Shown here: positions 1 to 64,000 of the stretch, piece by piece
Position numbering within the stretch: the first letter of the stretch is position 1
Layout of the letters: every line of letters starts with the position of its first letter
Notes under the pieces: generated by a model
Told to the model about the DNA's origin: nothing
What the model saw: only the letters and a program-made list of their open reading frames with translations
The model's database searches: none
Assembly (NCBI GenBank): GCA_033439295.1
Contig: JAVTLE010000017.1
Span: 1,364,001-1,428,000 of the forward strand
DNA length: 64,000 bases
Direction: 5' to 3'
Source: Deuterostichococcus epilithicus
Taxonomy: Eukaryota > Chlorophyta > Trebouxiophyceae > Prasiolales > Stichococcaceae
Program-made: the position numbers and the translations under genes

Positions 1-3000
1 TGTGATGCGCAGGCGGCTTCCTGCACGCGAACCGCACCAAGTCGCTCAGCCTGCTGGAGCTCATCTACGATGGCTTCCTCGCGCCGCGAGAGTCCCGCAA
101 GTGAGTAATCCTTCAATCTCGCCGAGAGGACAATCACTCTGTCATCTATACCGGCCCGCTGACCGGTCGTGTCGAGCGATGCACGGCGCCATCCAGTGCT
201 TGTGTGCCTCAGCCTGCGGACCGGCCGCCCTGCGCGCCCTGCCGCAGCCGCCCAGCCGGCTTGTGGACCAGCGNCCAGCGCCAGCCCCGCCGTGATGCAG
301 CATGGCGCGCGAGCGCCGCTCCCCGCGTGTCCGCACCATGCCGTGCTCCCCGCGCACCGACGGGAGCCCAGAGGTGGAGGAGGCGGGTCCGTGCCTGCGC
401 AGGGGCATGCACGGCGGCGGCAGGTCGTCAAAGATCGTGCACCGGCTGGCGGTGTTCAACAAAGCAGGGGACGTAGAGGCCGTCGTGTCGCAGTCGGACG
501 TCATCAGGTGGGTGCGGGTGCGCCGTGAGGGGCCCCGCGTGCGTCCATACATGCTTGGCGGCGTGCGAGAGGGGGGGTGGGGCACGTGCAGGNTGGGGAG
601 TGCTGCCGGCGCGGCACCCCCCCAGCACACTGCGCGTGTCTGGGGCGCGGCGCGCGCCAACGGCGGCGTCCCCTCCGTGCCGACGAGGGGGTGAGCGTGC
701 GGTGCGTGACGCACGGCATGGGCCCGCTGCTGCAGGTACCTGGCAGCGCGCACAGGCGAGCTGGGGCCGCTGGCAGAGAAGACCACCAAGGAGCTGGGGT
801 GGGCACAGCGGGAGGTGCGCATCCAGGTTGCTCCAAACCAGGAAGTTCTCAAAGTTCACAGCTCAAAATTTGTGAAGGGTTCTCAAGGTGCGCTTGGGAT
901 GGGGATACAAGATTCTCCAGGGCCCAGGATGCATGCGGGCTCACGCCTGCCTGCCAGGATGCGCGCCCAGGCAGAGTGTGTCGGCAGGGGCTGCCGTCAT
1001 GCCCCTGTGGCAGGCCGCCGCAGCAGCTGCCGTCCAACCGGGTGGCACGGCCTGCGGCCAGCCCGTGTATCACGCAGCCCCGGTCGCTGCCGCTCCGGCG
1101 CCGGCGCCACGATGTATACTCAGCCTGATGATGAAGGCAGTCATCTGTGTGACAGACCGCTTTGGGTGCTGAGCACAGCGCCACACGTGCCGGCCTTCGA
1201 GGGTATGCTCAGTATGTTAACAGCGGGCATTCTGTCCATTGTCGTCCGTTCCGACCTACTTCCCCTGCTCCACTTGTTGCAGGTGCTGTGCACGGCTCCG
1301 GATGTGTCGGCCTTCGAGGCCATGCTCAGCATGTCGGAAAAGGGCATCTCGGCGCTGGCGGTCGTGGCTGACAGCGGCAAGTTGATAGGCAACTTCTCGC
1401 TGTCCGAGCTGCGGACCATCATGGCCGACCACTTCGGGTCGCTGGCGCTGCCGGTGAGCATATTCAACTTTTGGCCAGATGGAGATGAGAGCGCACCCAG
1501 TGCTCCCTGCCTTCTTGTGTTGTATCCTTCTTTTTCTCGGAGCCGCGCGCTGCCATGGCGGAGAATCCTCGCCAGCTGGCGCGGACGGTGAGCGCAAAGG
1601 GGTTTCGATGGGTCATCCACACAGCATGAATCATCCATACTGTCACCAGCCGCACTTCGTGCTGTGCAGCTGCAACCATCTTGGCGTCCAGTCGCACACT
1701 CCTGCATGGTCGGCTTGGTTGGGCACTATGTCGAAGCCTTCCTGGCTGATGTGAGCCTGCGAGTCGCCACATATGCTGCTGCCCGCGCATGGCTGTGGGT
1801 CTGTGGAATTCTGGTCCCTGAACCCAGAACCCTCAACCCTGGTGTGCGGCTGCAGGTCGGAGAGTTCCTGGCACTGGAGCACGGCACCGAGTACCATGGT
1901 GTGCCCTAGTCGTATGATCAGTGTAGTATGTCGACGTAACATTCACTCGTCGATGCTTGTCGGGATGCTGCTTGGTGAGTTGCTGTGCATTCACTGATGC
2001 TGTGTATGAAGGGGCCCAGCCGTGGCAACAGCCGCAACCCCAGCTCCTTGCGCTGGACACCCCTCACAGCCGCATGCTCAGGCGTGCCAAGCGGGATGGA
2101 AGTGGGGCTGTCCTCTCTTGGGGCTCCCCCCGCCTGCGTGGGCGCCTGCGGTGGTGCCGCCCTCTCACACTGTATGGCGTCCGGTGCCCGCAGGCTACAT
2201 CGCGCACTCTGAATCAGATGCCGGCATCGAGAGCAGCTCAGGTGCGACCCGCCAGACTCGCCGGGCTCCGCTGCGGCCGCACCCGCGCCTGCCACCACCG
2301 CATCAGCTGCAGCTGCCCCCTGTGCTGTGCATCGGCTCGTGAGCAGGGTCTGGATCTTGCAGTCACAACCAGGTCTGCGCCTGGGCAGTCTTGCGGCCTG
2401 TAACCGGGTGCGCTTGGTCTCGTGTGGGCCGGGCGGCCGCCTCCAGGTTCAGGGTTTAGGCTTTCGGGTGCGGCACCCAGCCTCTCTTCCACTGCAGGGG
2501 GGCCTGCCGCGCCCGCGGCGTGGCGCGCCCTGTGAGCAGCTGTGGCGGGCCGCGTGCTGAGCTGCGCTTGCCGTTGACACGACGTGCAGGCGCGCAGTGG
2601 GCAAAGGACCGGCAGCAGCGCGGCGCCGCGCCGGGCCAGGAGGTGGGCCAGCAGATCATCTGCTGCGGCGCGGACACCACCTTCGCGGGTGCGGCTCATG
2701 ATTCGAAACTGCTCCGTTTCATGTACGATCATAGACTCTCATACACACAGCTGCCTGGCCGGGAGGTGGGCCAGCAGATACTCTGCTGCGCCGCGGGCAC
2801 CACCTTCCGCACGCTCCCGGGCTGCTCGCGCCTGCTGAGCCCGCGACCTTGACGCCTGCTGCCCAGCGCCAACTTCCACAGGGGATGTTGATGTTGGAAC
2901 GTGTTGGCACACTGTAGGCAGGGAAAACTTGGGCGCCCGCAGAACGAGCTCAGCCACTGTGCAGAAAGTTGCAGCCTGCCCGCCCGAACTTGGTCTCAGT

Positions 3001-3321
3001 TGTTTGTGGGCTGTCCATTGTTGAACATCCTTCGGCGCTGCATCCCTCCTCGTGTGCACCCCTTGCCCTTGTGCGCAGGCGTGATGCGGCTGCAGGCAGC
3101 GTATTAGCCTGCAGCAGCCAGGGCCTCCTGATGTGTTCGGGTCCCCACGGGTCAGGGTTCCCTGAGCAGTCATCGTGCCCCTCGCAGAGGTGCTGCAGCT
3201 GCTCACACAGCACCGGCTGCACCGGCTGTACGTTGTGGACCAGGACACTGCGCCCATCGGCCTCATCACGCTGACCGACGTGCTGCGGCGGCTGTGCAAC
3301 GAGGCGGGCACACCCGTCTGA
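1..3321 (+). CDS. SNF4/AMPK-gamma-like CBS-domain protein, 5' end missing
   Basis: Spliced frame from exons <1-100, 424-507, 736-798, 1283-1453, 1856-1898, 2194-2241, 2590-2688 and 3188-3321 (stop TGA 3319-3321). All junctions are GT-AG with matching phase. The pieces read as CBS modules: VVSQSDVIR in exon 2, VADSGKLIGNFSLSELR in exon 4, and HRLHRLYVVDQ...PIGLITLTDVL in the last exon. The last exon is joined through ADTTFAEVLQLLT across the 2688/3188 junction. CBS pairs bind adenine nucleotides, and the order resembles plant SNF4/KING1-type gamma subunits of the SnRK1 kinase, a nuclear/cytosolic energy sensor. The N-terminus lies left of the window. Introns after exons 3 and 7 hold decayed exon copies. 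It could instead be another multi-CBS protein; the CBS assignment is firm, the SnRK1 role is inferred. Confidence 0.75.
1166..1236 (+). repeat. Decayed direct copy of the 5' edge of the exon at 1283
   Basis: Reads TAPHVPAFEGMLSM, against TAPDVSAFEAMLSM in the real exon about 115 nt downstream. It lies in the preceding intron and lacks the rest of the exon. Confidence 0.75.
2757..2816 (+). repeat. Decayed direct copy of the 3' half of the exon at 2590-2688
   Basis: Reads REVGQQILCCAAGTTF, against QEVGQQIICCGADTTF in the exon, about 130 nt further on inside the intron. The donor-equivalent position reads cgcac rather than cgggt, so it is probably not spliced. Confidence 0.8.
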
Positions 3322-4057
3322 GCCGGCGCATCATGCGGCGGCACACGGGGTGCGAGGCTCATTGCTGGTACCCCCTGCCGAAGCGGTCGGCTGCCCTAAT
3401 CGCATGGCTTCGGCTTCTTTGCATGTCAGGAGACATGCACTCCGAGGCTGAGCGCTGAGTTATGCATGCAGGCTCAGCACCCAGGCGACATCTTGACCAC
3501 CTGTCATTTTGCTGAGGTTTGCGGCGGCCATGGCCGAGTCAGCTGGCGGGCTTGGCACTCTGCGAGGAACACCGGTGGCAACAAGCTGCCGCCAATCTTC
3601 ACTACGACCGGCTGTACGCTGTTGCCTGAGAGAGAAAGAAGGGGGGGGGGAGGGCGGGGGGGGTGCCCCGCCGCTGCGGCGCGCCGACGAGATGCGCCAA
3701 CAAAACATGTGAACTCATGCCGAGTGTGGCGGGCTTCACGAACGAGACCAAAACCCGTTTCGCAAGCCAGGGATCACAAGCTAGGGATGAGTGCTCGACT
3801 TGACGTCTTGACAGAGCAGAACAGTCATACGGAGAGGAGCGGGAAAGGGCTCGTGGTGCCATTTCAGTTGTGCGGCTCATCTGTATCATATGGACGGTTG
3901 GCAAGTCTGCTGTGATCAAAAGGCTTACTAAGGTCTTGAAATAGTTTGAATGGCCCAACCCGATAGACGGACGTTACAACGGTGCCTCACGCCACAATCG
4001 CAGTTGCCAAGGTCAATCAGCAGTCTTGATGACATGTGCCACACTCGAACTTCGTCT
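3322..4057. other. Convergent intergenic region
   Basis: Lies between the 3' ends of the CBS gene (+) and the aminotransferase (-). It contains a G-rich run near 3639-3664. I see no convincing coding frame, tRNA or mobile element. Confidence 0.5.
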
Positions 4058-7000
4058 TTACAATGCCCGCACCGCCGCCACCAATGAGTCCACCTCCTCC
4101 TCAGAATTATAGTAATGCACAGATGACCTGCAAGACGCCACAGGTATAATCCTGTTCAGCTCACCAGCACACAAATATGTCGGCACCAACCCGCGGCCGT
4201 TATCCGTCGACTTGCAGCAGGAACCGCAGCACACGGTTCACGGCGCCATTGCAAGCCAGGCAGCTGCGTGCCCCTCTCGTACCACAAGAGCGGCCTTGGG
4301 TACGGATCACAGCACGTAGGTTATCTCAACCGCACCTGACCACCGAGGCAAGACCGCGCGCCTCCATGTCGATGCGCGTGCTGCTGAGCGGCGAGATCCA
4401 CACATGGATGCGCCGCTTCCGCAGCGCCGCCTTGATGTCGGTCGGGTCACAGCCATCCTGCGGTTTGACATCAGGATTCCAGTAACGCGGTCGTGAAGTA
4501 GCAGGAGCGGCTCACGGCTGCAGACTCGGCGTGCTGCATGGTTTCGTGCGATCTAAATATTGGATGGCGCTGTCCGCAGTTGCAATAATTGCCAGCGCAT
4601 TATAGCGCGTCTGCTACCCAGCGGCATGTAAGAATTCGAATTCCGGCTCATGCACTCGTCCGCCAGACAGCACGTACGCAGGCGGGCAGACATGCACAAG
4701 TTGTGTATTGTTCAATTTCTGAGATGTTCCCTGCAGGCGGACGCCGGCGCACCTTGGTCCAGGTAACTATGCCGCACAGCAGCCGCCCCGTGTCTGTAAT
4801 AGCCACGCCGGGGATGCTCCGCAGCCCATCGCGCAGCCGGCTCGCCAGTGCTTGTATGCGCGCCCAGATGACGTCCGCACCGATGCCCACTGCCTGCTGC
4901 ACTGCTACCCCCAGCCCCACCTGGGGTTCAGGCGACGGTTTCAGGGTTCGGGAGACAGTTTCATTCTCGTGAAGCCGCAAAGTTTGGCTGCTGCAGGTCA
5001 GAGTGGCACCAGCAGCTCAAGCCGCGTGCCGGCATGTGTGGATGCTAAAGCATGCGACGCCTGCCCTGATGCCCGCTCCTGCTACACCGCCACGTCAGGT
5101 CACATCTGCTTCGCAGACTTTTCACGGAGATTATCAGGATCTCTTTCAGGATAACCTGCTGGCGACACCAGATCGAGGCTGCATGCTGCAAGTGAGATGG
5201 GCACGCCGACAGGCGACGTTCACCTGCGTCAAAAACCTGCTGCGGTGTCGCGCACCAAGACGGCCTGGCCTTCCTTGGCACAGCACGGCGGCCAGTGCTA
5301 TGCTGGGCATGCAGGCAGTGCCGGGGCCAGAGCAAATCGTCGAAGCCAGCGGACCCGCGTTCATGCAGCTAGTGTGGTTCGCGATACATGCTCCATCCCG
5401 ATCTGACCACCACGGCTGCTGACCGCAGCACTCCGTGCTGGCAAAACCTCACACCGCCAGCTCGAGCGATATCGCAGCATGTCGCCGCCGGGAAGATTAC
5501 TGCAGCGCCTGGCCGCTGTTGCGGTGGCAGCCCTTGCGCGCAGTTCTGCGCAAGGCTTACTTTGCCTCCGCTTGTGCTCCCCCTTTAGCTTCGAAACTGC
5601 AGTGACTGTCGTGCAGTCAATGCCGAAAACCAAGAACTAACAAACCTGCGCAGCGGAGGTAACTTCGGGCTGCATGTGACGGCGGCGCCGAAGTGGACGT
5701 CGCAAGCTCAAAAATTTGAATGGTATTTCTCAGCGTCGGAGGTCGCAAACCTTGGCTGCGAAGGCGACCTCATACTGCTCGTACCGCCGCGCTGTCGGCG
5801 CTGCCTTGTACGCGTCCTGCGCAGTCCACTCGCCGCCCCACATGTCCAGCATCGCAGGTTCTGTAGATTTCATTACCTCCCTGCATCATGCAATGAAGCC
5901 AGCACCTCAGGTGAAATGGCGGCGTCCGTCAACAAGGCACATCCGTTCGCAGCATCACAGATTCCGTGGCAGACGTCGTGTCCCTGCGCCAGATGACCTC
6001 CAGTGTGGAACCAGACTCCATGGCGCAGAAGGCCGCAGTAGAAAAGTGCGAAGCATGTTCCCCGAGGCAGCGCAGCGTGGCATTGCACTGACACAGGGGC
6101 TCAAATCACGGATCGAGTAAACCAACATCATTGCTGCCACATGATACACATGTCACCCCGACAGCTGGGCGACTTTATGCCCCAGCTCCAGCACCGAGGC
6201 AGCTGCCTGATGCAGCGCGGCTTGCCTGCTGCTCAACACGAGTCGGCTTGCAGCACGCTTTTCTGACTGTCCTGGTGTGTGCATGCTGCTGCCCGACCCT
6301 GCATCCGCTGCTGCCGCAGCATATCCCAGTGAGTCTACCAGTGAGTTCACCGGGCGGTACCTGGAGGCATACAGGAAGCCGATGCCGCGCGGCCCGCGGA
6401 GGTACTTGCGGGAGGTGCCGCTCAGCCAGTCGCAGCCGATGTGTCGCACGTCCAGCGGCAGCTGCACGCAAGACGGAATGTACGTCCAGCCCGGCTACTA
6501 GGTTCTGGGGCCGGATGAATGACAGCAGGCAGAGGCAGATGCTTGCAGCGCGGCGCTGCGCTGTGTGAGCAGATGGCGTCAGGGATCGGGCCAGGTGGCG
6601 CGGCACCGGGCACAGCCTCCCTCTGCAGGCTTGGCCCGCAGCAGCCAGGCAGTCGGCCAGCATCCCTGAGCCGGCCAGAGGCTGCATCCGCGCAATATCC
6701 ACACCCTAAATCCAAGTGGGCACCTTCGATGGTGCACACCTGGCCAACGCTCTGGCAGGCATCCAGCAGGAAGGGGACGCCATGCCGCTGCGTGACCCTG
6801 CCCACTGCAGCGGCATCGTACACACGCCCTGCAACATCGGCATTGTGAGAGCGTCGTCACCAAAGGGACGGCATGCACAGCCCCACAACACGCTCGTGCC
6901 CGTTTCTGCACTGCAGGCCGCTGCCCAGGGTGGATGCTAGCAAGCCCACGCAAGCTGCCGTCCCAGCTGGCGCTGCCCTGCATTTGCCACCCTGATTCGC

Positions 7001-8260
7001 TAGCCACATGCCAATGTCGGAAGAGGTTGCCAGACGTGAACACTAACCCGAAGTGAACACGAACCCCACCTGAGCCGGTGCCGATGTGGCTGATGGCCAC
7101 GAGCTTGGGCTTCGGTCCTGTCGTGATGAGCTCCTCCAGCGCCACTGTGTCGATGTCGCCCTCCTCGGTGTGCGGCACCACCTCGATAACGACACGATGC
7201 CGCTTCTGAGCCTGTGCGGCGGTCCAGGGCAGGTTGAGTTAGGTTTGGGGATTCAGGGTTTAGGAGCCATTGGGACCAATGCGATATCTGTGGCATCGGT
7301 GTTGCCAACCTCAGTCTGCGGTGTTGCCGTCCTCAGTCTGCGGTAACACCTCGATTTTTGTCAAACAGATTTTCTTTAGCATGAAAATGCATTGTAAATG
7401 ATGGAGGTGCGGTATCGCTTGTGGGCCTGCACAGGCGCGGGCACAGACCAGCGATCAACACCGGCAGCATGTGAAACGGGCCCCTCCTGCTGCTGCTCTG
7501 CTGCTTGCAGCTGTAGAACAAACTACGAGGCGCTTGCCTCTCCGCACTGAAAATGCCGATATCATGCAATCGCCGGGTCCGGAAGCGCAGAGAGAGGCGC
7601 TCCAAAATATGCAAAACTTGCAAGGGCCATGCGACCACGCGGGTCAGGCATAGCAGGGGAGGCAGTCCAGCAACATGCTGCACCTGAAGGAAGTTGATGT
7701 AGTTGCTGGCGTACTCTTGGACCGAGGTCAGGATGCGGTCGCCAGCAGCATACTCGATTCCAAAGAATGCCTGCTGCCATGCCGTGGTGGCGCTCTGCAC
7801 AACGGCAATCTCGGTGGCGGCGCAGTTCAGAAGCTCCGCGAGCGCATCGTAAGGAAGCTGCAGCTCGTCTGCGTGCTCCACTGTTGCCTCGTACCTGCGC
7901 ATGCAGGGCACAGGGGGACTTGATGTGTGAGTTCGGGCGTGCCAACATTGCAGCAGCTGCCAACCGATGGCTGGTTTGCAGTGGTATGCGTGCGTGATGG
8001 ATGATTTCCAGTCCTGCACCTGCACGACTCAGGGTCAACTTTGAACTGCAACGTGAAGGCACGCACCCGCCAATGTTGGCCTCAGTCTCCAGGAAGGTCT
8101 TTTGCGCATCAAGCACCTGCCGTGTCGGCAGCGCCGAGCCGGCGGCATTAAAGTGTGTCGCATGCGCGGTGCCCGGCGTGTCGCCCCGCGTCCAGTCCTG
8201 ACCGCTGGCGCCACCCATGGAGGAGCACCTGCGGCCGAAGCAAGTGAGCAGACTGACCAT
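4058..8260 (-). CDS. Class V PLP-dependent aminotransferase (isopenicillin-N-epimerase/cysteine-desulfurase-like)
   Basis: Minus-strand exons 8067-8260, 7684-7894, 7070-7205, 6740-6828, 6361-6461, 5751-5860, 4753-4920, 4336-4457 and 4058-4127 (stop 4058-4060). Motifs in order: [10 protein letters not shown] at the N-terminus; [21 protein letters not shown] carrying the cofactor-binding Asp; [16 protein letters not shown] with the Schiff-base Lys; [10 protein letters not shown]...ARRYEQYE; and [16 protein letters not shown] at the end. This is a fold-type I PLP enzyme that could act as an epimerase, lyase or desulfurase; substrate unknown. The start at 8260 is the nearest ATG upstream of the first conserved block. 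Exons 6361-6461 and 5751-5860 do not join in phase, and family members have about 7-10 more residues there, so a small exon is probably missed. Confidence 0.85.
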
Positions 8261-8389
8261 GAGCGCTGCAGCCGCGGCGTCACTACATCGGGCGTCTGCA
8301 TGCCGCCAGCGGGATGCGGGCTTGTAATTCGCGAGGTACGATCAGGAGTTCTGACTTCTCAAGCAGAGACAACTGCTCCATGAAAGGCA

Positions 8390-9562: not shown

Positions 9563-10990
9563 ACGTGCTGGCGGGGCTGCGCATGGAAGCAATCTTGCCA
9601 ACCTCCGCACTGCCGCTGCGGCTGGCGGCCTTTGCAAGCGCCTTCCGCACTGAGGCTGGCGCTGCTGGCGCCGCCTTGCGCGGCCTGTGCACCAGTTCAG
9701 CAAGGTGAGCCGCTGCTGTGGAGCAGGCTTTGCACACAACGTGAACATCCTCTCTCGTCACCAGCTAGCTTGCATCACTCTGCTGCAACGCCTCTGTACC
9801 AATTTGTGCGGCCACTGATTCATGGCGCTGCCACAGCTTGGGGTTGCACTTGATGCTGTAGGCAAAGTGCACGGCGCCTGCCGGAGTCGCCAGAGGGCAG
9901 TCGAACGCAAAACTTTCACTGCACTGCACACAGGTGGATATGTTCGTGAACTGCACGCCGGAGCAGAGCGAGGCGATGCTGGTGGAGCTGGTGGCGCTGG
10001 AGAAGTCGCTGTATGCAGAGCTGGGGCTGCACCTCAAGGTGCCGGACATGCCGACCGGCGACCTGGGGCGTCCGCCTACCACAAGATCCACTTCGAGGTG
10101 CGGGTTTCCGAGGCTTCCGATGTAAGGCCGTACCGAGCAATTTGTCCGACCGCATCGCATGCAGGCATGCTGGTGGCGGGACTAGTGTGTCTCGCGCCAA
10201 ACAACTGATGCGGCCTGGCTGAGGAGTTCAAGGGACAGACGATGTTACTCACGCTGCTGTGCACATCCGCATCACACTGCGGAGCACCTTCATGCTGGCT
10301 CATCATGACGTGCACATGTACGACGCTGTAGGCGTGGATGCCGGGCATGCAGCGTGGTACGGCGAGATCAGCTCAGCCAGCAACTGCACCGTCCACCTGG
10401 CCCGCCGCCTTGGGTGCGCCTCCCTGGCTGTGATTACCACTTGTTATGTGTACTTGATACTGGAAAGTTGCCGAAGCTTCTGCCCCTGACACCTCCTGAG
10501 GAGTCTTGCAGCTGCTGCGCTGGAACCCTGGCTGCAACAAAGCGGTGCACTCCTGCAAGCAGGATCCGGTATCGGCCGGATGCGCCAGAACCGGAGGCCA
10601 ATGGCGCAGACGGCAGCAAGCCAACAAAAAGCAGCACAAGGTGAGCTTTGCCGCTGGCTGACTGTACGTTTGCACTTGGTTGCGGTGTTGTGGTACCAAG
10701 GTGGCAGGGCTGCGCTTCTGCCACCTTCAAGTAGCATCAATCAGGCATCTCATTCCGAGCGGTTTGTAGGGTTCATGAACGCGGCACAGCTGCAAGGAAA
10801 ATGGTTATCTAGGTCTGCCATCGTGACAATGTGTGACAGCTCACTTCGTTGCTGCGCTGTGCAGGTGCCCACGCAGTACGTGCACACGCTGAACGCGGCG
10901 GTGGCAGCGGTGCAGCGCCTGATCGTGGCCACCTTGAGACGCACCAGCAGACGGACGGCAGCGGGGTGTGGTGGCACCCAGCAGAGCGGG
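9563..10990 (+). pseudogene. Seryl-tRNA synthetase C-terminal fragment, frameshifted
   Basis: Class II SerRS core pieces in correct order: LPLRLAAFASAFRTEAGAAG (motif 2, 9595-9670), then HQFSK, VDMFVNCTPEQSEAMLVEL from 9934, LGLHLKVPDMPTGDLG, WYGEISSASNCT, RIRYRPDAPE from 10563, and YVHTLNAAVAAVQRLIVATL from 10874. Splice sites look intact (donors about 9700, 10098 and 10414; acceptors 9933, 10331 and 10562). The frame is broken at four places: near 9690 (about 7 nt lost in GLYR-VHQFSK), 10066 (one G lost), about 10355 and about 10938 (one G lost). The N-terminal arm and motif 1 are absent. Most simply a relic; uncorrected sequencing errors could mimic some breaks but not the truncation. Confidence 0.8.
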
Positions 10991-11229
10991 GTGGGTAAGG
11001 GAGGTGTGTACGTCACTTTGTCTCCCTTGGCGTGTTAACTCTCCGTGGATGCTCACTACTGTTCAGCAATGCTTCCGTACGTAGGCATGGTGATCAAACA
11101 TAACACACGCAAACTGCCTTCAAGTGCACGTCCAACAATATTGTTGTTCTAAAAAAGGATGCAGACGTGTGCCAAGAGTGACACATGATGCGCCAGATGT
11201 TGCTGTCGCCAGTTCATTAAAATTCATCA
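10991..11229. other. Short intergenic stretch
   Basis: Between the SerRS relic and the 3' end of the minus-strand membrane protein gene. It is relatively A/T-rich; no feature recognised. Confidence 0.4.
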
Positions 11230-14156: not shown

Positions 14157-14213
14157 CTGCACTTTTCGTGGTGTGATGCATGTTGCATGGCCGCATCTGC
14201 GACGATGATGTTG

Positions 14214-14257
14214 TGCCGTGCGGGCACGTCGCCGCCCGTTGGGCTGGCATCGATATC
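14214..14257 (-). repeat. Decayed copy of the exon edge at 14100-14156
   Basis: On the minus strand it reads DIDASPTGGDVPARHN, against YLDAPVGGNAACDDG in the exon about 100 nt downstream in the direction of transcription. Confidence 0.5.
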
Positions 14258-15027: not shown

Positions 15028-15056
15028 AAACTACCTTGTGATAGGAGGCCCAACCA

Positions 15057-42716: not shown

Positions 42717-42844
42717 CAGCAAGACCACACCAGGTCACATGAGGGCGTCCCCAGCAGCGCAGCAGTAGGCAGTCTGAAACCAGGGGGGGTGGCGCAGATC
42801 CGCCGCATCCGGCTCGCAGGCAGTGTCAGCAGCGGATGGCCTGC

Positions 42845-46800: not shown

Positions 46801-48351
46801 CCAAGGCCCGGTTCTCGCAGTAAATTACTACCGAAACCCTGGCTGACGTCGTCTGCCCTGCTGTTTCAGATGAAGTAGCTGCTATGCTTTCGATTGGCGC
46901 GCTCCCTTGCTGGCGCAGGATTCCCATTGGCAAGCGTCGGCTTTGGTTATCAGGACGCTATCTGACCTGCGGCTTGTCTCTCTTGCTCACAGGTGAAGCA
47001 GCTGCTGGACGGCTATCTAGCGCGCTTCTCGCTGGCGCCGGTCTTCGACGAGGCAGAGCTGGCGCACACGCTGCTGCCAACGCCGGACGTCGTCAGCTCC
47101 TTCGTCGTGGAGGCAGAAGGTGACTTTTATAAATAATGTTCAACATCAATCATTGAAATACAGATACAACCAAATGTTGCCGGCGGCGGCTCCTCCGTCG
47201 TGGAGGCACAAGGTACCGAGTGGGAGGTTTCGGAGTCTTAACAACACAGTCGTAGGCACAAGTGCTGCTGCCGTTCGAGTCTCAACAACATGAGTCGTAA
47301 ACACGAGCATTGCTGCCGACGGCGGCTGTCCTCAGCAGGCTTGTGGAAGTTTTTAATTTATCGTGTGACGAAGTAATTCACAGAGTCACTGTCATGGAGG
47401 CGCCAGGTTGCGGAGGGAACGGGCCGACTCTGTCGTCCACAGGGTTCTCACAGCCTTTGCTGGCATTGTCTGGTGACAAACTTGCCAGACTAGCGTGCAG
47501 AGCCGCTCCTCTGGCGGGCAGAGATGGAGCTCCATTGCATTTCGCGGAAGCAGATAGGTGCCGAGACAGCGATCTCGTATTATTTCATCGTAGTATTATT
47601 TCATGTCAACAGTCATATAGCTTATTGAAATATTTCAAAATTATAATTATATTATAATATCCGGCATGCAGACGGGCGGCTGACAGACCTAGCCAGCTTC
47701 TACACGCTGCCCTCCTCCATCATTGGGCACGAGCGCCACAGCGAGCTGAAGGCGGCGTTCCAGTATTACACCGTTGCCGGCGCGACGCCGCTGCCGCAGC
47801 TAATGGCAGACGCGCTGGTGCTGGCGCGGCGCAGCGGCCACGACGTCTTCAACGCGCTCGACCTGCTGCAGAACCAGGAGTTCATGAAAGTAGGTCTTAT
47901 CCAGGAATGAGGGTCTAGGGTTTAGGGAGCTCTGCTCCGCGCCCTGGCTGCACTGCCGGAGCCGAGGCATGCATGTTTCAGGCACCATGGCACCTGGCTC
48001 CACGCCTGTCAGCAGGGTATGGCGTAGGGCCCCCAGACGGCCACAAGCAGGTTGCTGATCACGGCAACAGCATGAACAAGATGCTGTTGCCTTGCTGCTG
48101 CACATGGCGCTGCATGTGGCTGTCGCCGACAGCTGGCAGCCAAAGCAGCATTGATCGTGCAGGGCGCCCTGGGGCGCACTGTCCCAGCAACACAAGCTCG
48201 GCAACGGCTATTCTGCCAAGCTCGCATGTCCATTGGTTCCTCGCAGGACCTCAAATTCGGCATCGGGGACGGCAAGCTCCGGTATTACTTGTACAACTGG
48301 CGGGTGCGGCGGGAGCTGCGGCCGGAGCAGGTCGGGCTGGTGCTGCTGTAG
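43816..48351 (+). CDS. NMT1: Glycylpeptide N-tetradecanoyltransferase (N-myristoyltransferase)
   Basis: Exons 43816-43893, 44029-44184, 44330-44403, 44669-44770, 45391-45619, 46068-46217, 46618-46716, 46993-47119, 47672-47889 and 48247-48351 total 1338 nt (445 residues, normal for the family), all in phase. It transfers myristate from myristoyl-CoA to N-terminal glycine of cytosolic proteins. Motifs: [38 protein letters not shown] (CoA-binding region with EINFLCVHK), [52 protein letters not shown], and a C-terminus ending VGLVLL (the usual C-terminal leucine). The introns after 46217 and 46716 both have GC donors, fixed by conserved sequence on each side. Intron 4 contains decayed copies of both neighbouring exon edges; intron 8 has an A/T-rich island. 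Confidence 0.93.
44845..44900 (+). repeat. Decayed copy of NMT exon 4 end plus donor
   Basis: acgacgagatgttcaagtga tccgctcc here matches acgacgagatgttcaggtga tccgctcc spanning the exon 4/intron 4 border at 44770. About 88% identical by eye over 45 nt. A weaker third copy lies near 44955-45000. Confidence 0.85.
45105..45310 (+). repeat. Two decayed copies of NMT exon 5 start
   Basis: gcgggccttcctgcagtgga cgctgcagg (45133-45161) and gcctcccggagtgggcatgg (45262-45281) match gcaggccttcttgcagtggg cgctgcagg in the exon at 45391. Both lie in intron 4. Confidence 0.8.
47573..47662. other. A/T-rich island in NMT intron 8
   Basis: About 90 nt dominated by A and T (attataattatattataata) just before the acceptor at 47671, in a GC-rich gene. 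Confidence 0.7.
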
Positions 48352-53000: not shown

Positions 53001-56000
53001 ACCCCCACGGCCGGTCCGCTGGACTGTCAAAGGCGTTGCGATGCCTCCAGGAGCTGCCCCGCATGGTGACCAGCTGCACAACTCTGCGCTGCGCCACTCT
53101 CGCGTCCCCTGTTGCCAAGCAGTCCCCTGCCGGCGCTCCCCCCCTGCCACGCTTGCGGTACGTGGGCGGGCGTGCCTTTCTGAGGGTATGCACCCCGAGT
53201 CAGGGCAGCTCTGATCCCAGCCCTGATCCCAGTCCAGATCCCAGCCCATGACACCCTCCACCCGCGCACAGGCGGCGGCAGCATGAGCACCGTGGAGGAG
53301 GAATCTCTCAAAAGGCTTTTTCAAATGTTCCTTCATATAGAACATTTGTCTCATAGAACATTTCTTTTCAGGCGGCCGGCAGCATGAGCACGGCTGAGGA
53401 GGACTTTTCAACGCCCGCCGCCAGCGAGGCGGGTGGGTCGACCACCTCCGCTGGCCGCGCCGCCAGCTTCGACCCGCTCGGCATGGTGCGCCAGCATGTA
53501 AACCCCTAAAACCTGCCTGGTGTGTGCACTGCGGAGCAGGGCGGCCGAGGCTGGGCGGCAGATCCCTACATGGTGCTCGGTCCCTACACGGTGCTCGGCC
53601 ATCCCTGTGCCATGCATGTTGCTGGTGCATCACAACCGCAAGCTTTCCTGCACCCGGCTCCCTCCGATGCTTGGCGACTTTGGATGCCGTCGCGGGGGGG
53701 CGGCCGTGCTGTTGTGTGCTGGATGGGGCTCCAGGCTCTGCGCTGGAGGTCGTCCCACCAGAGGCTCCGCAGCGACCTGACGTAAGAATCCTTCTGCCGC
53801 CAGGCCGCCAGCGCGTCCCCGGAGGAGCAGGCCAAGGCTGTGGAGCAGGCGGAGAAGCTCGTGGCGGCAGGACTGCACGCATACACCGAGCGGGGGTGCG
53901 CCTTACCTGGCATCCCATCTTCCGCGCACCCCCTGTGCTGCGAGCTCCTAACTCGATGAGATGACCAGTGACATGGCAGGCGAACTTCAGTTCTGAGACG
54001 CACAGCCGGCATGCATGCTTCGATCACCCTGTGCCACGACTGCTCTTTCCGTGCACCTGCCTCATTCGGGGGGAGTATGGTCAGGGGCCGGCGCAGGTAC
54101 GGCCTGCGTGGTCGACAGGTCCCTGCCCCACAATCGCCTGTCTGCGTGAACCACCCCCCGGCGGAACCACCGTCGCCACTGGCACTGCAGACTTCCTGAC
54201 AGCCGCTCGATGCGATGAAAGCTAGCCTCGTCTTCATTTCGAGCATGATACCCAGTGCAAGGGGAAAACATATGGGCGCAGAGGACCTAGTTGATGCGGA
54301 CGGCGCTGCGGTTGCTGCGCGATGCCTTGACATCAAGAAGAGCGCCACTGAAGCCGGAGCCCTGCTTCCTGCCCTGCAGCAACGATAAGGGCGCGGAGAA
54401 GATGATGCAGACGGCGCTGCGGCTGCTGCGCGACGCGGGCGTGTCCGGAGAGCCCCTCGCCTATGCCGAGTATGCGCTGAGTCATCTGTACTACGCCACT
54501 GGCCATCCGGAGGACTCGCTGGACCACCTGCGCATCGGGCAGCAGGTGCGATATTGATGACAGTGTCAGTATGAGCATTGTGATGGGAACTCAATCAGCA
54601 GCTCCGTAATGACCAAAAACGGAGCTTGGTAGTCGAATGATGGAGTGGCGGTGCGGCATGCAACAGGGTGTCCAACCCATGTGCGCCTACGGGCTTTGCT
54701 CCACTCTGTTCCGCATCGTGCAGTGTGCAGGCTCGTTTTGTCATGTTTGTTGGCTCTGCTCCACAACATGGACCGCACAGGTGTTTCCTTGCTACATGTG
54801 CCTCCTGCTTCTGGCCTCAGCTGTGGCGTGTTTCCCCAGCTGGTGACAGAGAATACTCCAAGGTCGCAGGCGATGTTGCTCAAGGTCCAGCCGGCGCAAG
54901 CCGAAGACCACCTGGAAGGCTGCGTCGACATGCGGTTCTGCATCTGAACTTGCAAAAAAATGCTGACGGCAGGTCGCGGAGGACGCAGACGCGGCGGGGG
55001 CGCCGCTCAAGATCCAGCTGGCGCGGCAGCTGGCAAACAACCACTGCCTGGTGCTGCAGGCGCTCAACCGCAAACGGGAGGTGCGCCTTTCGTCAGTCTG
55101 GAAACGTGTGTGATTGGATTTTCAAGAATGACAACTGGAAAATGGCAGGCGCTCGAGCGCAAGCCGGGGTGCGCCGCTCTTTTGTGTTGTGTACTGCATG
55201 TGCGTCTTGTGAAACGCAAGGCAATGGCGTGGAGGTCGACAGCCCACGCACCGCATGCAGATTTTGCGAGCCAAGGCCAATGCGCCGAGCAGAACGCGCG
55301 GTCTACTGCAGCCCGCGTCCTTGCTCCTTGTCAACAATCTAGACGTGCGAGAAGCCTTGTGCAATGCATTGTGGCTGCGCTCTGCAACTGCTGCGCGAGC
55401 CGGCTGTCCTCAACACATCGATGCTCATCACGCTGATGTTTGTCTGGTGTGCCGCACGGGCGGCGGAGGCGCTGCGCCTCTCACTGCGGACGCCTGCCTG
55501 GTGCAACGGAGGCGCCGCATTCTGAGATGTCGCCTCCCTGCGCCACAAAGTGCCCCTTTGATGTTGCTGCACAGGCGGCGGAGGTGGTGCGCCGCTTTGC
55601 GGACGCCTGCCTGGCGCGGGAGGGACCTGCATCCAATTGGACCACGCACGCACGCATGCACCTCGCGGCGGCGCTGGAGGAGGCTGACGCCCGGGTGAGC
55701 CGCTGCACTTGAGCGTTAGGTTTCAGGGTTCAGGACGGGTTCCGGGGCCTTGCATCCGCTGTTGTCGGCAGCTGAAGAGGCGCGCCCACGCCGCAGTCAG
55801 GGCGGTGCCGGCGAGGGAGGGGGGGTCGACAGGAGAGTCTCGACTGCTCGTGTTGTTTCGCAGGAGGTGGGAGGCTCGACAAGAGAGACTTGGATGTCCG
55901 GCTTGTTTCGCAGGACGAGGCGACGGCGGGCCGTCAATGCTACAGGCGAGGTGAGAGGCTCGGAACGAGTTTCGATTGTCCGCCCCAAAACCCTGAATGC

Positions 56001-58699
56001 TTGTTTGCAGGACGAGGCGACGGCGGGCCTGCAGTGCGCGGCGGACGAGCTGCTGGCGGTGGCGGACCGACTGGCGGCGGCGCAGGGCGACGGTCCTGCG
56101 GGCGGCGGCTGCGGCGGCGGGGACGCCGGCAGCAGCGGCTGCAGCGGCGGGGACGGCGGCGGCGTCGCGGCCGGCGGCGCAGCAGCGGGAGCAGCGGAAG
56201 CAGCGGAGGACGCCGCGGCGGCAGGCGGCGGCCGCGCCGAGCAGCACGAGGTGAGAATCCTGCATCATATTGTTGCTTTGTGTGCCTGCGGCACAGCTGG
56301 GCCTGGTGCTAAACCCTGAAACCTCTGGCACAGCTGGGCCTGGCAGCGTGGTCGCAGAACCTGCTTACTGCCTCAGATGCACCCTCCAAGGTCCTGGACT
56401 GCCTTGGAGGCTCAGGTTCTGACTTCCCTTTGCACTCGTGACACCCCAACCACCTCCATTGCCATGCGCCCACACATACACAGTCTGTGCACCCAATGCG
56501 CCAATGCACCATGCGGACCCCAATTTTGCACCCGCACCCAGGGCCTGCAGGCCAAGAGACTCCCAGCTGGGTCTGGCATGCTGGTTACATCTGCTTCAGT
56601 CATTCAATCTGTGTCGATGACGGTGAGCGCGGCAGCGCTGCCCAGCGCGCACTCGCTGGGCAGCGTGCTGGACCCGTGTCCTGAGCCGGGGTCTGGCGCC
56701 AAGGCACCTCGTCACAGGGAGGAAACCCTAAGAAATCCTGCTTGAACCGCCAGGACGCCAACGAGGACGGAGAGCGCGGCAGCCCGGCGCAGCGGGCGCG
56801 CTGGGCTGCGGCGCGGCTGGTGGTGGCCGCTGGGGAGGCGCACGCTCGGGGCGAGGCGCCGGAAGCGGCGGAGGAGGCCCTTCGGGCCGCCGACGCGCAG
56901 GCGGACGCCGCGTGGGGCGCCGACGACTGGCTGGCCTTCAACGTCCGCGCCAAGCTGGCCGGGTTCCTGAGGTGGGGGCTCTTCCGGTGCCTCCGCATGA
57001 GGCAGGGCACCTGCCACCCTCGAAGGAGGGTTTGGCTCGGTTGGTGGCCTGCAGGAGCAAGACGGTGTTGACACATCTGAGGCTGGGGGACGCTGCCGGT
57101 TGGCTGGCCTGCGACATGCGCGCCCAGCCGGCCAGCTGCCTGCGGTGGAGGGTGTTGTTCGCCCTTGCTTCCTGGCGTGCGTCACACCCCGAAAACCCAT
57201 AAGAGGGGAGAGGGATCCCTGAAGCACTGGCGGCAAGCGCTGGTTTTCGGGTTTCGCATCGCTCACCCCTTCTCGCGACCAGGGACTTCGCTCTTGCTGT
57301 CTCGTTTGTGCTCATCCGTGAGCAGCTCCCCAGGAAGACCGCCTGCCCGGGGGGTCGCCTGAAGAGAGCCTTCTGACAGGTCGCAGTCTGGCGACCGGCT
57401 TTCGGGCTGTTGCGGAAATTGGGGACACCCTGCACCCTTAAAACTCGTTGTTGCGCCCCCTTTGCAGACTGCTCAAGACGGACGCGGCGGCGGCAGAGGC
57501 GGCGCAGCTGCACGAGGGCCTGCTGAAAGTGACGAGGCGGCATCACGGCGACGCCGACGAGCGCACCGCTGTTGCTTTACAGACCATGGCCAAGGCACGT
57601 TTCGGAACAGTTCAATACACATTACAGAAAGTAAACTCTGCGGCTGCGTGCGTGAGGCGTTGAGGGTTATCGGCCCAGGTGGCAGGCTCGACAGCTCAGC
57701 CGTTCCTCCCAACGCGCAGCAGTCCAGCTGGTCAGATTCCGGGCCCGGATGGTGCCGGATGTCCGGGGTGGCTCAAGGATCATGGCTATAGGGCACACGA
57801 CATCGTGGGCGCTGCGCGGCTCTAGGTTGTTGCCCCATGCCGGTGACCACGGGTAAAATTCCAAGGGTTTTCGGATGGTGTGTGCCCTCAGGTGTATCTG
57901 CAGGCTGGCAAACCACTGGAGGCGGTGGCAGCTGCCCAACAGTCGCTGGACATCATGCAGGTTGGATCCTACATGCTTGAAGACTTATAGTGGAGTATCA
58001 TCAAGAGAAATCCGGTCCTCAACTCGCATTTCAGTTGGGCAAGCGATGCATCATCCCAGCCGCCAGCGCTTCCCCTTTGCTTTTGTCTGCAGACACTGAC
58101 CGCATTCCAGCCCATTGTGCCGGCAGCGCGCTCCCCGGATGCCAGCAAGCATGGCCGATCAGTGCGCGCTCCATGCCGCCTGGAAGCTGCTCCAGCCGCC
58201 ACGGAACCTGCTGTCGCAGCACTTGTTCTCCGACACGGTGCCCGTCCCCTGACTCGTGGCTCCTGTGCCGCGCAGCGGCTCCTCAAGAAACACGACGTGC
58301 GGCTAGAGTCCTTCTGGGCGTGCCTCGCCGACGCCTTCGAGGCGGTGCGCCCTGAACCCTAAAACTCGGACCGTCCCTGTCTTGCAGCTACCTCGGCTCC
58401 CCCCTTGGGCTCATCAAACCGGAGCGCGCATGTGTTCGCCAAGCCTGCTCGGCCGCAGGCGGGCGACGCCGCGGGCGCACGTGTGGCTACGAAACTCGAA
58501 ACCGTCAACCCTGGAGCCTTCGCGGCCGCAGGCGGACGACGCCGCGGGCGCACGGGAGGCGCGTCGCCGGGCGCACAAGCTGGCTGTGGCGGAGCTGAAG
58601 GAGCAGCAGCGGCGGGGTGCCGCCAGCCGGGCCGCCGGCGCAAAGCCGGCGGCCAGCAGCCGCCCGCAGCGCCGCCACCCGCCGCCCGGCGGCCACTGA
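50077..58699 (+). CDS. Long PAM2-motif protein with C-terminal helical (TPR-like) repeats
   Basis: Exons 50077-51010, 51292-52947, then 53372-53485, 53804-53895, 54380-54545, 54973-55080, 55575-55694, 56011-56250, 56754-56971, 57468-57594, 57892-57960, 58093-58344 and 58388-58699 (stop 58697-58699). The last eleven are in phase (605 residues). The first half is Ala/Pro/Gln low complexity with two overlapping PAM2 cores at 50881-50940 (LNPAAPEFTLNPSAKEFQP), which in ataxin-2 and CID proteins bind the MLLE domain of poly(A)-binding protein. Two SWAD motifs and DEDEGWTQVTSR follow. The second half has paired helices (AYAEYALSHLYYATGHPEDS; VYLQAGKPLEAVAAAQQSLD) as in TPR proteins. A one-base frame change lies between about 51950 and 52100, near ambiguous bases. 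Exon 53372 has its own acceptor, so I treat this as one gene; two genes remain possible. Confidence 0.6.
53266..53302 (+). repeat. Decayed copy of the exon start at 53372
   Basis: caggcggcggcagcatgagc accgtggaggagga here matches caggcggccggcagcatgag cacggctgaggagga at 53369. The copied acceptor (gcacag) is still present. Confidence 0.8.
54274..54330 (+). repeat. Decayed copy of the exon start at 54380
   Basis: atgcggacggcgctgcggtt gctgcgcgat here matches atgcagacggcgctgcggct gctgcgcgac in the exon (TALRLLRDA in both), about 115 nt apart. Confidence 0.85.
55455..55522 (+). repeat. Decayed copy of the exon start at 55575
   Basis: ggcggcggaggcgctgcgcc and gcggacgcctgcctggtgca match ggcggcggaggtggtgcgcc and gcggacgcctgcctggcgcg in the exon. 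Confidence 0.85.
55855..55955 (+). repeat. Decayed copies of the exon start at 56011
   Basis: At 55908 gcaggacgaggcgacggcgg gcc, preceded by ttgtttc, matches the true acceptor and exon start at 56005. A shorter, more decayed copy (tgtttcgcaggaggtgggag) is at 55854. Confidence 0.85.
56614..56662 (+). repeat. Decayed copy of the exon edge at 56766
   Basis: gacggtgagcgcggcagcgc tgcccagcgcg here matches gacggagagcgcggcagccc ggcgcagcggg in the exon. Confidence 0.8.
57049..57118 (+). repeat. Decayed copy of the exon end at 56971
   Basis: ggctggcctgcgacatgcgc gcc and gccagctgcctgcggtgg match ggctggccttcaacgtccgc gcc and gccgggttcctgaggtgg across the exon/intron border. Confidence 0.75.
58444..58484 (+). 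repeat. Decayed copy inside the last exon
   Basis: cggccgcaggcgggcgacgc cgcgggcgcac here matches cggccgcaggcggacgacgc cgcgggcgcac at 58523. The frame stays open through both, so it may be translated or spliced out. Confidence 0.85.
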
Positions 58700-60482: not shown

Positions 60483-63400
60483 TCAAGGGACAGCTGGGAT
60501 TCCGCCGCTGGGTGACGCGCATGTGCAGGCCGCCGCCAGTGGTGGACGGAAAGCTGATGGGAGCTGAAGTCCGGAATTCCATCGAGCAGACACCTTCACA
60601 ATGTCCTCACCTGCTTCACTTGCATGTGCAGGCCATCGCTGGCGTGAATGCAAATTCCGGGGAGAGATTCTTGGTGCCAGACGCAGCAGCTCGCTCACGT
60701 GGTGCTGCCGCCGGGTCACGTGCATGTGCAGCCCGCCGCTGGTGTGAATGGTGGCTCCAGTGGTCATGCCAACCTCCGGCGCCGCCGGGTCCAGCGTGAA
60801 ATCGTAGCGCCGCATGAGCATCGCCAGCGCCACGATCGCTTCGAACAGCGCGAACTGGTCGCCTGCAGGCGAGTCACAAGAGCTTTCTTTCCTAACATTT
60901 CTGAGTGAACTCCCATTGACAACGGTGTGCTGCAGGAGCACTGCCAGCGCGGTTTGCACTCTGAACAGCACGATTCTGATCGCCTGCTGGCCAGGGCCAT
61001 CAACTTAGACACCTTGATGCGGATCAAAGTGGGCAAACAGATGAGACATATCATGGGGAGGCATGATGTGACCTGTACAAAGCCCCCTGCGAACACGATG
61101 CAGAGGTGACATAGCCAAAAGGGGCAGGCGGAAGAGGAGCCGCACCGATGCACTTGCGGCGGCCGCCGCCGAAGGGCAGGTATGCAAAGTTGTGGGTGGT
61201 CTCGTTGGGGACGCCGCGCGTCCCGTCAAAGCGGGTGGGGTCGAACTCATTGGGGCGGTCCCAGTACTCTGGCGAGCGGTGCAGGTTCCACACGCTGATG
61301 AAGATGTCCGAGCCCTGCTCCACCTGTGCGACGAGGAGAAAAATGGAAACATTAGAAGGGTTTCAAACTCGTTGTGGTCGGACTACCCATCGAAGGGTTG
61401 TGACCATCAAGCCGTGCAAGGGGAACACCACCCGACCTTGAAGCCGCCGACGACGTCGTCCTCGAGCGCCCGCCGGATGAGCACGGGCGGCTGCGGGTAC
61501 AGCCGCATCGCCTCGTTCAGGCAGCGCGTCGTGAAGTACAGCCCCTTGATGTCCTCCAGGGTGGGCGTCCTGTCGCCCAGCAGGCTGTCCACCTGTTGGG
61601 AATCACAGTTTTTTGAGTTTCACGCCAGAGTCCACGGCGTTCCATGCCCCGTGATGCCTCACCGTGACGGCGCGCCTCCTGTCGCAGGCGCTGCGCGTGC
61701 TGCGGGCGCGCCGCCCGGCCAGGCAGCCCCGCGGCTGCAGCAGAGGACCCAACCAGGCGGCCGGTGATCGGGCAAGCTGGGCCCTGAACCCAGACATAAG
61801 AAGCAGCGCACCTCATGCTGCAGGCGCTGCACGTGCTGCGGGTGCGCCGCCAGGCAGTAGAGCGTCCACGTCAGCACCGCCGCCGTCGTCTCGTGGCCCG
61901 CGATGAGCAGCGTCATCAGGTCATCGCGCAGCTGTTTGCTGGAGATCCGGTCCCCGGACGCCAGCAGGAAGTGGAGGATGGAAGGGTCCCGCTCGCCCAC
62001 AAACTCCTCGGAAAACTCCTCCTCCTCCGTTTCCACCTGGGTGCAGACAAGAAAGCTTGGTTGCTGGAGTTTTGGGGAGTCTCAGATGGAGGCGTCCCGC
62101 TCGCCCACAACTCCTCACCTGTTTTTTCTGCTGTTTCCACCTGGGCGCAGACAGGACAGCTTGTCTCCTGGAGTTTCGGGGCACGGACGCCCGCAGGGAG
62201 TCTCGACTGGAGGGCTCCCGTTCTGTCTTCACCGCACATAGAGACAGAGGACGTAGAAGTTCCCCGCAACCTTCTCGGAGGGTTCCTTCTGCTCTGTCGT
62301 CCACTTATGACGAAGACAGCGGATGACTGCGATGGCTTCAGGGCCTGCGAGCCGGCAGGTCTGTGCCCCCTGACGAAGAAGTCTTAACATTGCCTAGTCT
62401 GCGGCGTGTTGCCCTGTCTCCACCAGGTTGGAGACACCAGAGGCTGGTGACAGGGGGTGCAGCTGCGGTAGGCTTGCACTGAGTTGTGCGAAAACACCAA
62501 GGGCGACAGCCTGTTTCTGCCCGCTCGCACAGCCTCCACTCATACCAAGATTGCTCGAGCTGCCCACTGATAGGAAAGGACAGTCCCAGCGCGCTGCTGG
62601 TGGTCGAAAGGCTCGCAGTCGTGACACTGGGCCTGCACACAGAAAGCTCTCTCAACATCACACAGAGCGGTGCTCACCAACGTCTTGCATTTGTTGATGA
62701 GCTGGTCCAGTGTGGTGTTGACGACCTTCATCGCCGCTGTGCAGCGGCGCTGCCGCGGTACCAGCCACCGCAGCAGGGGCACCTGCAAGGCGTCAAGCAC
62801 GTGTGAGGAGGCGTATGCATCCTGGGGACCGCAAGTGGCAGCCTGGGCTGCTGCGCGTGCTGAGGGGGCTAAGAGCCACCGGGTCGGCGCCCGAGACCGT
62901 TATCAGTGTCAGGTTTTTGGGTCCTTTGCTGCACTCGACAGGCAGCACGAGGGTGTGCCGGCCCGTGTGCTTCACACAGGGAAGCCGGCCCAGGGGCAGC
63001 AGGGGACATGCACATCCAAACATCTCATGCACCACTGCATCGCAGAAGACTCACATTCCAGTAGGGCACGAAGGCTGTGCTCCGGTACTCAGCCTCGCGC
63101 AGCGCCACATACACCGCCTGCAGCATAGTTTTATTTTCCATTTCTATTCTATATTCAAATAAAAATCAAAAATAAAACAGAAGGCTGTGCGCCTCCAGCT
63201 TGGCACTCCCGGGGTCCAGATCTGGCATCGGCACGGCCCATGGCACATGCCTGACGACGCGGTCCCTTGGCTCACATGCATGATGTTGCATGCTGTGCCG
63301 GGCTGCGCAGGGCCTGATCGCGAGACAAGCCATCCTCGTCATCCTGTCGCACGTCTCGTCTAGCCGTCTTGAACCGTCCGGTCTGATGTATAACCAGTCC

Positions 63401-64000
63401 GGCTGCATTCAGCCAATCCCCACCAGCGACGGCCTAGCCCACCGCTACAACAGGGAAACTGCACGAGAGAAAAGCAGAGACCACACCTGGATGACAGGGT
63501 CGTCATGGGTCAGCGAGTCGAAATCGTAGTCGAAGACCGCCTTGCCAATGATGTCCAGCGTCAGGCGCGAGAACAGGTTTTCCATTTCCACCACCCGTCC
63601 TGTCTCTGCCGCCTCGTCCAGCAGCTGCATCATTCGACAGGTACAGGGTAAGGTTATAGACCGAAGGCTGTCCGCAATTTGCATTCGCCATGAGTTGATA
63701 ACCGCCCGCTGCTGCCGCCTCATCGAGCAGCTGCAGGAGCGCAATTCAGGAGCGGCGCCTCCCTGAAAGCACGTCAACACACTCGGCGAGGTCCCTACCC
63801 TCCTAAAAGAGCCCCGACAGGGCGCATGACAGGCTGCTCGGGTTTATCGCAACACACCAGCGGCACGTGTGCATCGCGCGGGCCAGCACCGGACGGCACA
63901 AGCGGAAAAATGTATGCCAAAAAACCCACTTTCGTTGCGTGCAACGTGCAGTCGCCAAACATGTTGACCATGGCGGCGATGTAGGCGCGGTGCAGCGAAG
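60483..64000 (-). CDS. CYP97A: Cytochrome P450, CYP97A-type carotenoid beta-ring hydroxylase, 5' end missing
   Basis: Minus-strand exons >63930-64000, 63487-63624, 63055-63117, 62678-62782, 61812-62036, 61437-61592, 61146-61323 and about 60699-60862. Motifs: [55 protein letters not shown], the I-helix oxygen-activation site AGHETTAA, ExxR in [36 protein letters not shown], and the heme-Cys loop [12 protein letters not shown]. The C-terminus is [20 protein letters not shown]. These sequences are characteristic of plant CYP97A/LUT5, a chloroplast hydroxylase of carotene beta rings in lutein synthesis; subfamily A rather than B or C is inferred. The exact last codon is unclear: after VTRRQHH there is a gtgagc donor, but the frame stays open to 60483. 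The N-terminus lies right of the window. Confidence 0.88.
60505..60660 (-). repeat. Two decayed copies of the P450 C-terminal block
   Basis: Minus-strand [14 protein letters not shown] (near 60610-60652) and [14 protein letters not shown] (near 60505-60547) mirror [16 protein letters not shown] at 60705-60752. Three copies are spaced about 100 nt apart. Confidence 0.85.
62080..62232 (-). repeat. Decayed copies of P450 exon 61812-62036 5' part
   Basis: ggcgtcccgctcgcccacaa ctcctc (62091) and ggctcccgttctgtcttcac (62213) match gggtcccgctcgcccacaaa ctcctc in the exon. The adjoining intron start (gtttccacctgggtgcagac / gtttccacctgggcgcagac) is copied too. Confidence 0.85.
63128..63178. repeat. 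A/T-rich inverted repeat in a P450 intron
   Basis: gttttattttc (63128-63138) is nearly the reverse complement of aaaaataaaac (63168-63178). About 50 nt of A/T-rich sequence in a GC-rich gene, able to form a hairpin; resembles a tiny inverted-repeat element. Confidence 0.6.
63690..63740 (-). repeat. Decayed copy of the P450 exon start at 63624
   Basis: On the minus strand cctgcagctgctcgatgagg cggcagcagcggg here matches atgcagctgctggacgaggc ggcagagacagg at the acceptor 63625. It lies in the upstream intron. Confidence 0.8.

Follow-up and report, generated by a model that had tools for sequence, protein, structure and literature searches.

Where does the additional sequence in a lengthened intron come from? 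The question is raised by a 64,000-nucleotide (nt) stretch of the genome of the green alga Deuterostichococcus epilithicus (contig JAVTLE010000017.1, positions 1,364,001 to 1,428,000; hereafter the window), in which introns carry decayed copies of the exon edges beside them. A reading of the sequence alone had attributed these copies to one active process of short tandem duplication at splice junctions. Our data indicate that the copies are real, directional and local, and that the introns probably hold relics of tandem duplications of approximately 85–150 nt across exon–intron junctions, the outer splice site of each having been kept while the inner copy decays neutrally.

Results

The window belongs to contig 15; the genome comprises 46.8 Mb in 21 contigs. 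Samples of eight other contigs (160 kb) and the flanks of the window (40 kb) bring the sequence examined to 264 kb in nine places. The label W denotes the window plus 20 kb at either end, and coordinates above 10,000 under labels L002–L016 belong to two joined stretches. The genome is intron-rich, with 58–63% guanine plus cytosine (GC) in the parts read. Gene models were predicted by a gene finder self-trained on the same sequence, which gave 593 exons and 551 introns with donor CAG/GTGCG and acceptor GCAG/G; these splice motifs resemble those of green algae.

Evidence for the copies came from local alignment of the 17 pairs named by the sequence-only reading, 16 of which outscored all 200 dinucleotide shuffles. 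Fifteen of the 16 align over 31–62 nt at 81–94% identity; the other (45262/45391) is weak, with 45/62 positions identical and a score of 27 against 23 for the best shuffle. The seventeenth (14214/14110) yielded an 8-nt match only and is no copy by this test. Scans for ungapped direct repeats (score at least 18; low-complexity repeats were filtered from these, from the gapped scan and from the lag-class counts below) found ten in the window at a spacing of 90–120 nt and none at 1000–1060, 1500–1600, 2000–2200 or 5000–5200. Across the 264 kb the same scan peaks at 100–120 (n = 18), with 6 repeats at 20–40, 1 at 40–60, 2 at 60–80, 4 at 80–100, 6 at 120–140, 15 across 140–600 and none in the far ranges 1000–1200, 2000–2200 and 3000–3200. 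Gapped alignment at a score of at least 40 gave 14 pairs at spacing 100–120, whereas distant pairs lead one to expect 0.012 per 20-nt bin. The copies lie on the same strand at short spacing, with no excess of reverse complements.

Alignment of 60-nt exon edges with their own introns (score at least 28) detected copies on the donor side in 19/452 cases and on the acceptor side in 32/445. These rates are well above those for other introns (0.0022 donor, 0.0015 acceptor) and for the reverse complement of the same intron (0 and 0.0022). Queries of 200 nt (score at least 30) gave 52 matches in 48 of the 486 introns of at least 90 nt, the null having been made for 60-nt queries only; all nine sampled regions carry at least one such match (30 in the window region, 1–5 in each of the others). 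Most pairs comprise an exon edge and the adjacent intron; in some the gene finder calls an exon edge at each copy, and in two or three pairs neither side is coding.

Within the window a directed search placed 16 exon-edge matches in introns, spread over 8 of the 11 gene models (one model probably merges several genes). On this approximate count the suggestion that at least ten genes are affected was near the mark. Introns at 1042–1282, 7212–7683, 47120–47671, 53066–53371 and 56251–56753 bear copies that the sequence-only reading had passed over. Copies in series, which it had reported, are evident at 60504 and 60616 beside the exon edge at 60707–60750, and again in the intron at 44771–45390. 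When three introns were used to search the whole genome, each matched only itself and the neighbouring exon edge (the search skips very common words).

The anatomy of the duplicated unit was taken from 31 of the 52 directed-search matches (near ≤15, spacing 75–150). Spacing is 85–150 nt, the exon part measures 30–82 nt (mean 49) and the intron stretch from junction to copy 32–100 nt. In a set of 29 pairs (near ≤15, spacer ≤110, score at least 30) the spacer is at least 53 nt in 27. In the gapped scan, five of the 30 pairs at spacing 75–150 are full or near-full head-to-tail units across a junction. The youngest, L013:7540–7710 (L012 17540 in joined coordinates), is an 85-nt unit of 55 nt of intron and 30 nt of exon at 97% identity; by eye, the ends of this single young unit share a microhomology of about 1 nt. 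Four are older: L003:9393–9643 (L002 19393), L014:4648–4940 (L014 4648), L019:5865–6051 (W 99865) and window 61977–62181 (W 81977). A sixth full or near-full unit is an array outside predicted genes. For 25 of the 30 pairs (four lacked a usable predicted junction and one outside genes was left out) the intron sides outscore mismatched pairs (Wilcoxon P = 0.002), the full units contributing much. The idea that the spacer is a whole mini-intron of about 60 nt was dropped: by eye, many spacers have no GT start or AG end beside the copy.

Three repeats in the sampled regions deserve separate mention. At L011:8507–9006, outside predicted genes, there are several tandem copies of approximately 85 nt, about 75% alike and equal in unit size to the junction duplications. 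Two 120-nt stretches at L019:8665–9204, 419 nt apart, 75% identical and both read as exon, constitute an internal coding duplication. At L006:5164–5789, exon stretches of 81 and 40 nt have copies at a distance of 457–467 nt, in sequence predicted to be non-coding; this range is longer than in the rest.

Copy-bearing introns are long. Their median is 365 nt, compared with 215 nt for all introns, in keeping with the proposed association between copies and longer introns; 31/149 introns of at least 300 nt are carriers as opposed to 17/337 of 90–300 nt. For every one of the 31 filtered pairs, intron length (145–620 nt) exceeds the spacing (85–150 nt), often several-fold.

Do the copies contribute to the protein? 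The border in the N-myristoyltransferase gene aligns to the solved protein glycylpeptide N-tetradecanoyltransferase 2, and that at 62036 in the CYP97-type P450 gene to LUTEIN DEFICIENT 5, in both cases with no added segment (elsewhere the models have flaws: about 10 extra residues in the former and two unaligned stretches in the latter). By these alignments, the copied segment is absent from the protein in the two genes checked against solved proteins. The N-myristoyltransferase copy, moreover, holds an in-frame stop. For a Trf4-type poly(A) polymerase in L004, the protein match reaches the exon end and stops where the gene finder put a false exon on the copy, which is consistent with a copy outside the protein. 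The gene finder misread several copies as exons in this way, with a small exon called at window 55914–55950 as well (the L004 case is at about 9889–9923), and automatic annotation of this genome may err likewise.

The pattern of divergence is the one expected where a copy is non-coding and its coding parent changes chiefly at silent positions: differences at codon positions 1, 2 and 3 are 0.125, 0.143 and 0.202 (37 alignments with 45 gaps; near ≤20, score at least 34). Most copies are 10–20% diverged. In 32 pairs (near ≤12, spacing 75–175, score at least 32) exon-side identity is 0.75–0.87 in the three windows nearest the junction; the donor profile uses 9 of 13 pairs, short exons having yielded no sequence. 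Decoy splice sites are indeed left behind, as had been supposed, with an exact GT or AG in 17/32 copies. The suggestion of a single active process fares poorly: only 2/29 usable pairs exceed 0.91 exon identity, and 2/34 exceed 91% in the gapped scan.

Simulation bears on whether plain tandem duplication is enough. Random duplication at a steady rate with subsequent decay was rejected, since it predicts that 64–71% of detected pairs keep the intron half and that 38–68% lie above 0.91 identity. Fitted runs, for which settings were scanned, used ages of 0.20–0.35 substitutions per site, 0.2 small insertions or deletions per substitution and no or few large ones, with filters slightly unlike those of the 29-pair set. 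Simulated identity bins of [0.35, 0.31, 0.27, 0.08] and [0.24, 0.32, 0.31, 0.13] compare with the observed [0.28, 0.31, 0.34, 0.07], gaps per alignment of 1.7 and 1.3 with 1.2, and intron-side windows of 0.44–0.52 with about 0.45–0.54. More broadly, ages of roughly 0.15–0.35 bring the neutral model near the observed identity bins and intron-side windows, and old ages yield a similar step in homology at the junction. A junction-specific mechanism would not be required: in these simulations, neutral duplication of old age approximates the spectrum of identities, the number of gaps and the disappearance of intron-side homology.

Pairs at short spacing are scarce. Exon–intron pairs scoring at least 34 number 0 of 1.81 M position pairs at lags of 41–74, against 14 of 3.45 M at 75–117 (2 against 16 for scores of at least 30). 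Introns themselves show an excess of shared 10-mers at lags 20–100.

Discussion

A central issue is how an exon edge comes to lie inside the adjacent intron. The account that we think likely begins, as did the sequence-only reading, with a short tandem duplication (about 85–150 nt) across an existing junction, taking in 30–80 nt of exon and usually at least 53 nt of intron. The outer site would stay in splicing use and the message would be unchanged; the inner copy, carrying a decoy donor or acceptor, would join the intron, where, as the substitution pattern shows, it decays free of coding constraint. The intron half would decay in both copies and the exon half freely in one only. Constraint on the parent copy would keep exon edges visible, and old events would be recognisable mainly as exon-edge copies because the intron half is lost from both sides, as it is in simulations of mostly old ages. 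The old-age fit thus implies that the exon-edge appearance can reflect what survives. Repeated events may give rise to series of copies and to longer introns, an association that our data show. Junction duplications with too short a spacer are missing, most simply because they spoiled splicing and were selected against: the scarcity at lags of 41–74 and the spacers of at least 53 nt probably mark selection against too little intron for splicing. Filling-in of staggered breaks or paired nicks is, by analogy with other systems, the leading candidate for the molecular cause.

Several observations weigh against this account. Steady ages fail, and the neutral model is rescued by an old age range alone, chosen after the data had been seen. 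On the intron side, identity starts at 0.54 in the first window and is then mostly 0.42–0.51, the background being 0.39–0.46; past the first dozen nucleotides most pairs show intron-side homology close to background, and outside the full units the intron half is unrecognisable in most pairs at spacing 75–150. A second young-looking pair (L004 9767–9934) is 95% identical over 41 nt and has little intron-side likeness. The mean exon part of 49 nt is shorter than the 62 nt expected under uniform breakpoints (P = 0.0007, 31 matches). Events at junctions number 26 against 5 within introns (lag 75–160, score at least 30); three of the five are intron halves of junction units, one lies between serial exon copies and one is a clear case, where the model leads us to expect about 4–14 (a simulated ratio of 0.15–0.24 per event, with 85,605 intron-internal and 37,316 to 86,222 junction start positions). 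Looser scoring at lags 80–150 gives 2 intron-internal pairs against 30 exon–intron pairs (classes EI, IX and XX). This excess goes beyond what decay bias readily explains. Exact decoy sites persist as noted, with no clear sign of selection against them; selection as the reason for the lower spacing limit is our inference; and the Trf4-type case is weaker than the other two protein checks.

These points lend themselves to a different reading, in which a process targeted to junctions, such as damage associated with splicing or with the chromatin of exons, copies exon edges into introns 55–100 nt away and leaves the spacer unduplicated. It would account for the way homology drops around the junction, from about 0.8 almost to background, for the rarity of intron-internal units of the same size relative to the neutral model (26 junction events to one clear internal case), for the clustering of spacers at 53–70 nt (21/29) and for the L004 pair. 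However, five pairs are full or near-full tandem units that include the intron half, old-age neutral duplication produces a similar junction step, and inverted copies are not in excess, unlike the case of many templated insertions; we regard such targeting as unlikely. Equally doubtful is the broader claim that a junction-tied duplication process has repeatedly copied exon edges into introns genome-wide and so been a principal contributor to the growth of introns in the lineage. If true, it would imply roughly 0.2–0.6 events per intron (32 pairs, 551 introns, simulated detection of 10–34%, ages 0.20–0.35).

That the copies are functional, as alternative or mutually exclusive exon edges or as splicing regulators under selection, might be argued from the good donor or acceptor motifs that some retain and from exon-copy identity in excess of intron-side identity. 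But codon positions 1 and 2 have diverged in a manner unlike constrained coding sequence, the N-myristoyltransferase copy contains its stop, and for two genes the solved homologue lacks any added segment. On the pooled codon-position rates coding-constrained alternative exons were rejected, and function of any kind seems very improbable. In the proto-splice model an intron is gained when an exonic AG/GT site is duplicated in tandem. This too involves tandem duplication of about 100 nt with exon sequence, yet it predicts copies at both ends of an intron as long as the spacing. Because the introns are longer than the spacing in all 31 cases, and the unit that was copied straddles a junction already present, we give this origin hardly any weight; the sequence-only reading had drawn the same distinction. 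Chance, low complexity or assembly artefact finds some encouragement in a GC-rich genome with repetitive coding sequence (the exon–exon background), but the controls (far lags, other introns, reverse complement) gave values near zero and divergence of 10–20% is not a product of assembly errors. This explanation is scarcely credible.

Tandem duplication across junctions, then, has a number of parallels. One earlier study reportedly described internal gene duplications that take in splice sites. Tandem genomic duplication that creates a new intron at a proto-splice site is described in Drosophila (PMC2891723), and reportedly in the potato RdRp gene (PMC4974935). As here, the duplication is local, includes exon sequence and leaves an extra copy hidden by splicing; there, however, a new intron of unit length is made, whereas here the junction of an existing intron is spanned and that intron lengthened. 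New introns of Daphnia carry direct repeats from staggered double-strand breaks, proposed to lengthen introns (PMC4202315), some of them repeats of the adjacent exon end left by break repair, as here. Those exon-end repeats are 4–12 bp and lie at the far end of new introns (PMC4202315), unlike our copies of 30–80 nt, mostly 53–100 nt from the junction in introns that need not be new. In mammalian cells filled-in 3′ overhangs give rise to small tandem duplications, the short insertions described there being under 100 bp (PMC8355091); our units are longer than most mammalian fill-in or Daphnia staggered-break repeats. Stwintron formation in Lipomyces involves donor duplication within an existing intron, with duplications of 4–7 nt and nested introns as the outcome (PMC7138796). 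Introner elements of the green alga Micromonas are also repeated sequences tied to splice sites, but form multi-locus families (PMC3488318). Because our three introns match nothing beyond themselves and the adjacent exon edge, no introner family is involved as far as tested. A search of titles and abstracts found no description of junction-spanning duplication relics, which does not establish their absence from print, and little on intron lengthening without transposons beyond the Daphnia work.

The copies are a variant of the tandem-duplication remodelling of genes, found in all sampled regions. Their value is as markers: the constrained parent exon keeps a record of duplications that within introns soon become invisible, and thereby makes the size range and the splicing tolerance of short tandem duplications measurable.

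Additional features of the window

Table 1. Exon-edge copies in the window, with two of the copied exon edges
Feature	Position	Strand	Spacing (nt)	Remarks
Intronic copy of exon start 1282–1334 (acceptor side)	1165–1217	+	117	
Copied exon end (donor side)	2630–2684	+		Parent of 2753–2807
Intronic copy of 2630–2684	2753–2807	+	123	89% identity; one of the introns used in the genome search
Intronic copy of exon start 7154–7187	7322–7355	-	168	
Intronic copy of exon end 19463–19499	19567–19604	+	104	
Intronic copy of exon end 21841–21892	21705–21758	-	136	
N-myristoyltransferase exon end plus 17 nt of intron	44726–44787	+		Border 44770/44771
Intronic copy of 44726–44787, including decoy donor region	44838–44899	+	112	84% identity
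Intronic copy of N-myristoyltransferase exon start 45397–45458	45127–45188	+	270	
Intronic copy of exon end 47088–47121	47181–47214	+	93	
Intronic copy of exon start 53377–53403	53276–53302	+	101	
Intronic copy of exon start near 54381	54267–54325	+	114	
Intronic copy of exon start near 55565	55450–55504	+	115	
Copy of acceptor and exon start 55999–56037	55901–55940	+	98	90% identity; called a small exon by gene finder
Intronic copy of exon start 56762–56794	56615–56647	+	147	
Second serial copy of exon end 60707–60739 (CYP97-type gene)	60504–60536	-	203	
First serial copy of exon end 60716–60750	60616–60650	-	100	
Intronic copy of junction unit 61977–62077 (60 nt exon start, 41 nt intron)	62085–62181	-	108	Near full-length tandem unit, 78% identity

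A 45-nt tandem repeat (1.9 copies) at 47233–47318 lies in the same intron as the copy at 47181–47214. Scans of the window with Rfam (gathering scores) and for transfer RNAs gave no matches. The window also contains 17 scattered N letters, mostly single, within otherwise continuous sequence (positions 274, 593, 20488, 28536–28559, 46320, 49901, 50222, 51421, 52123 and 52156).

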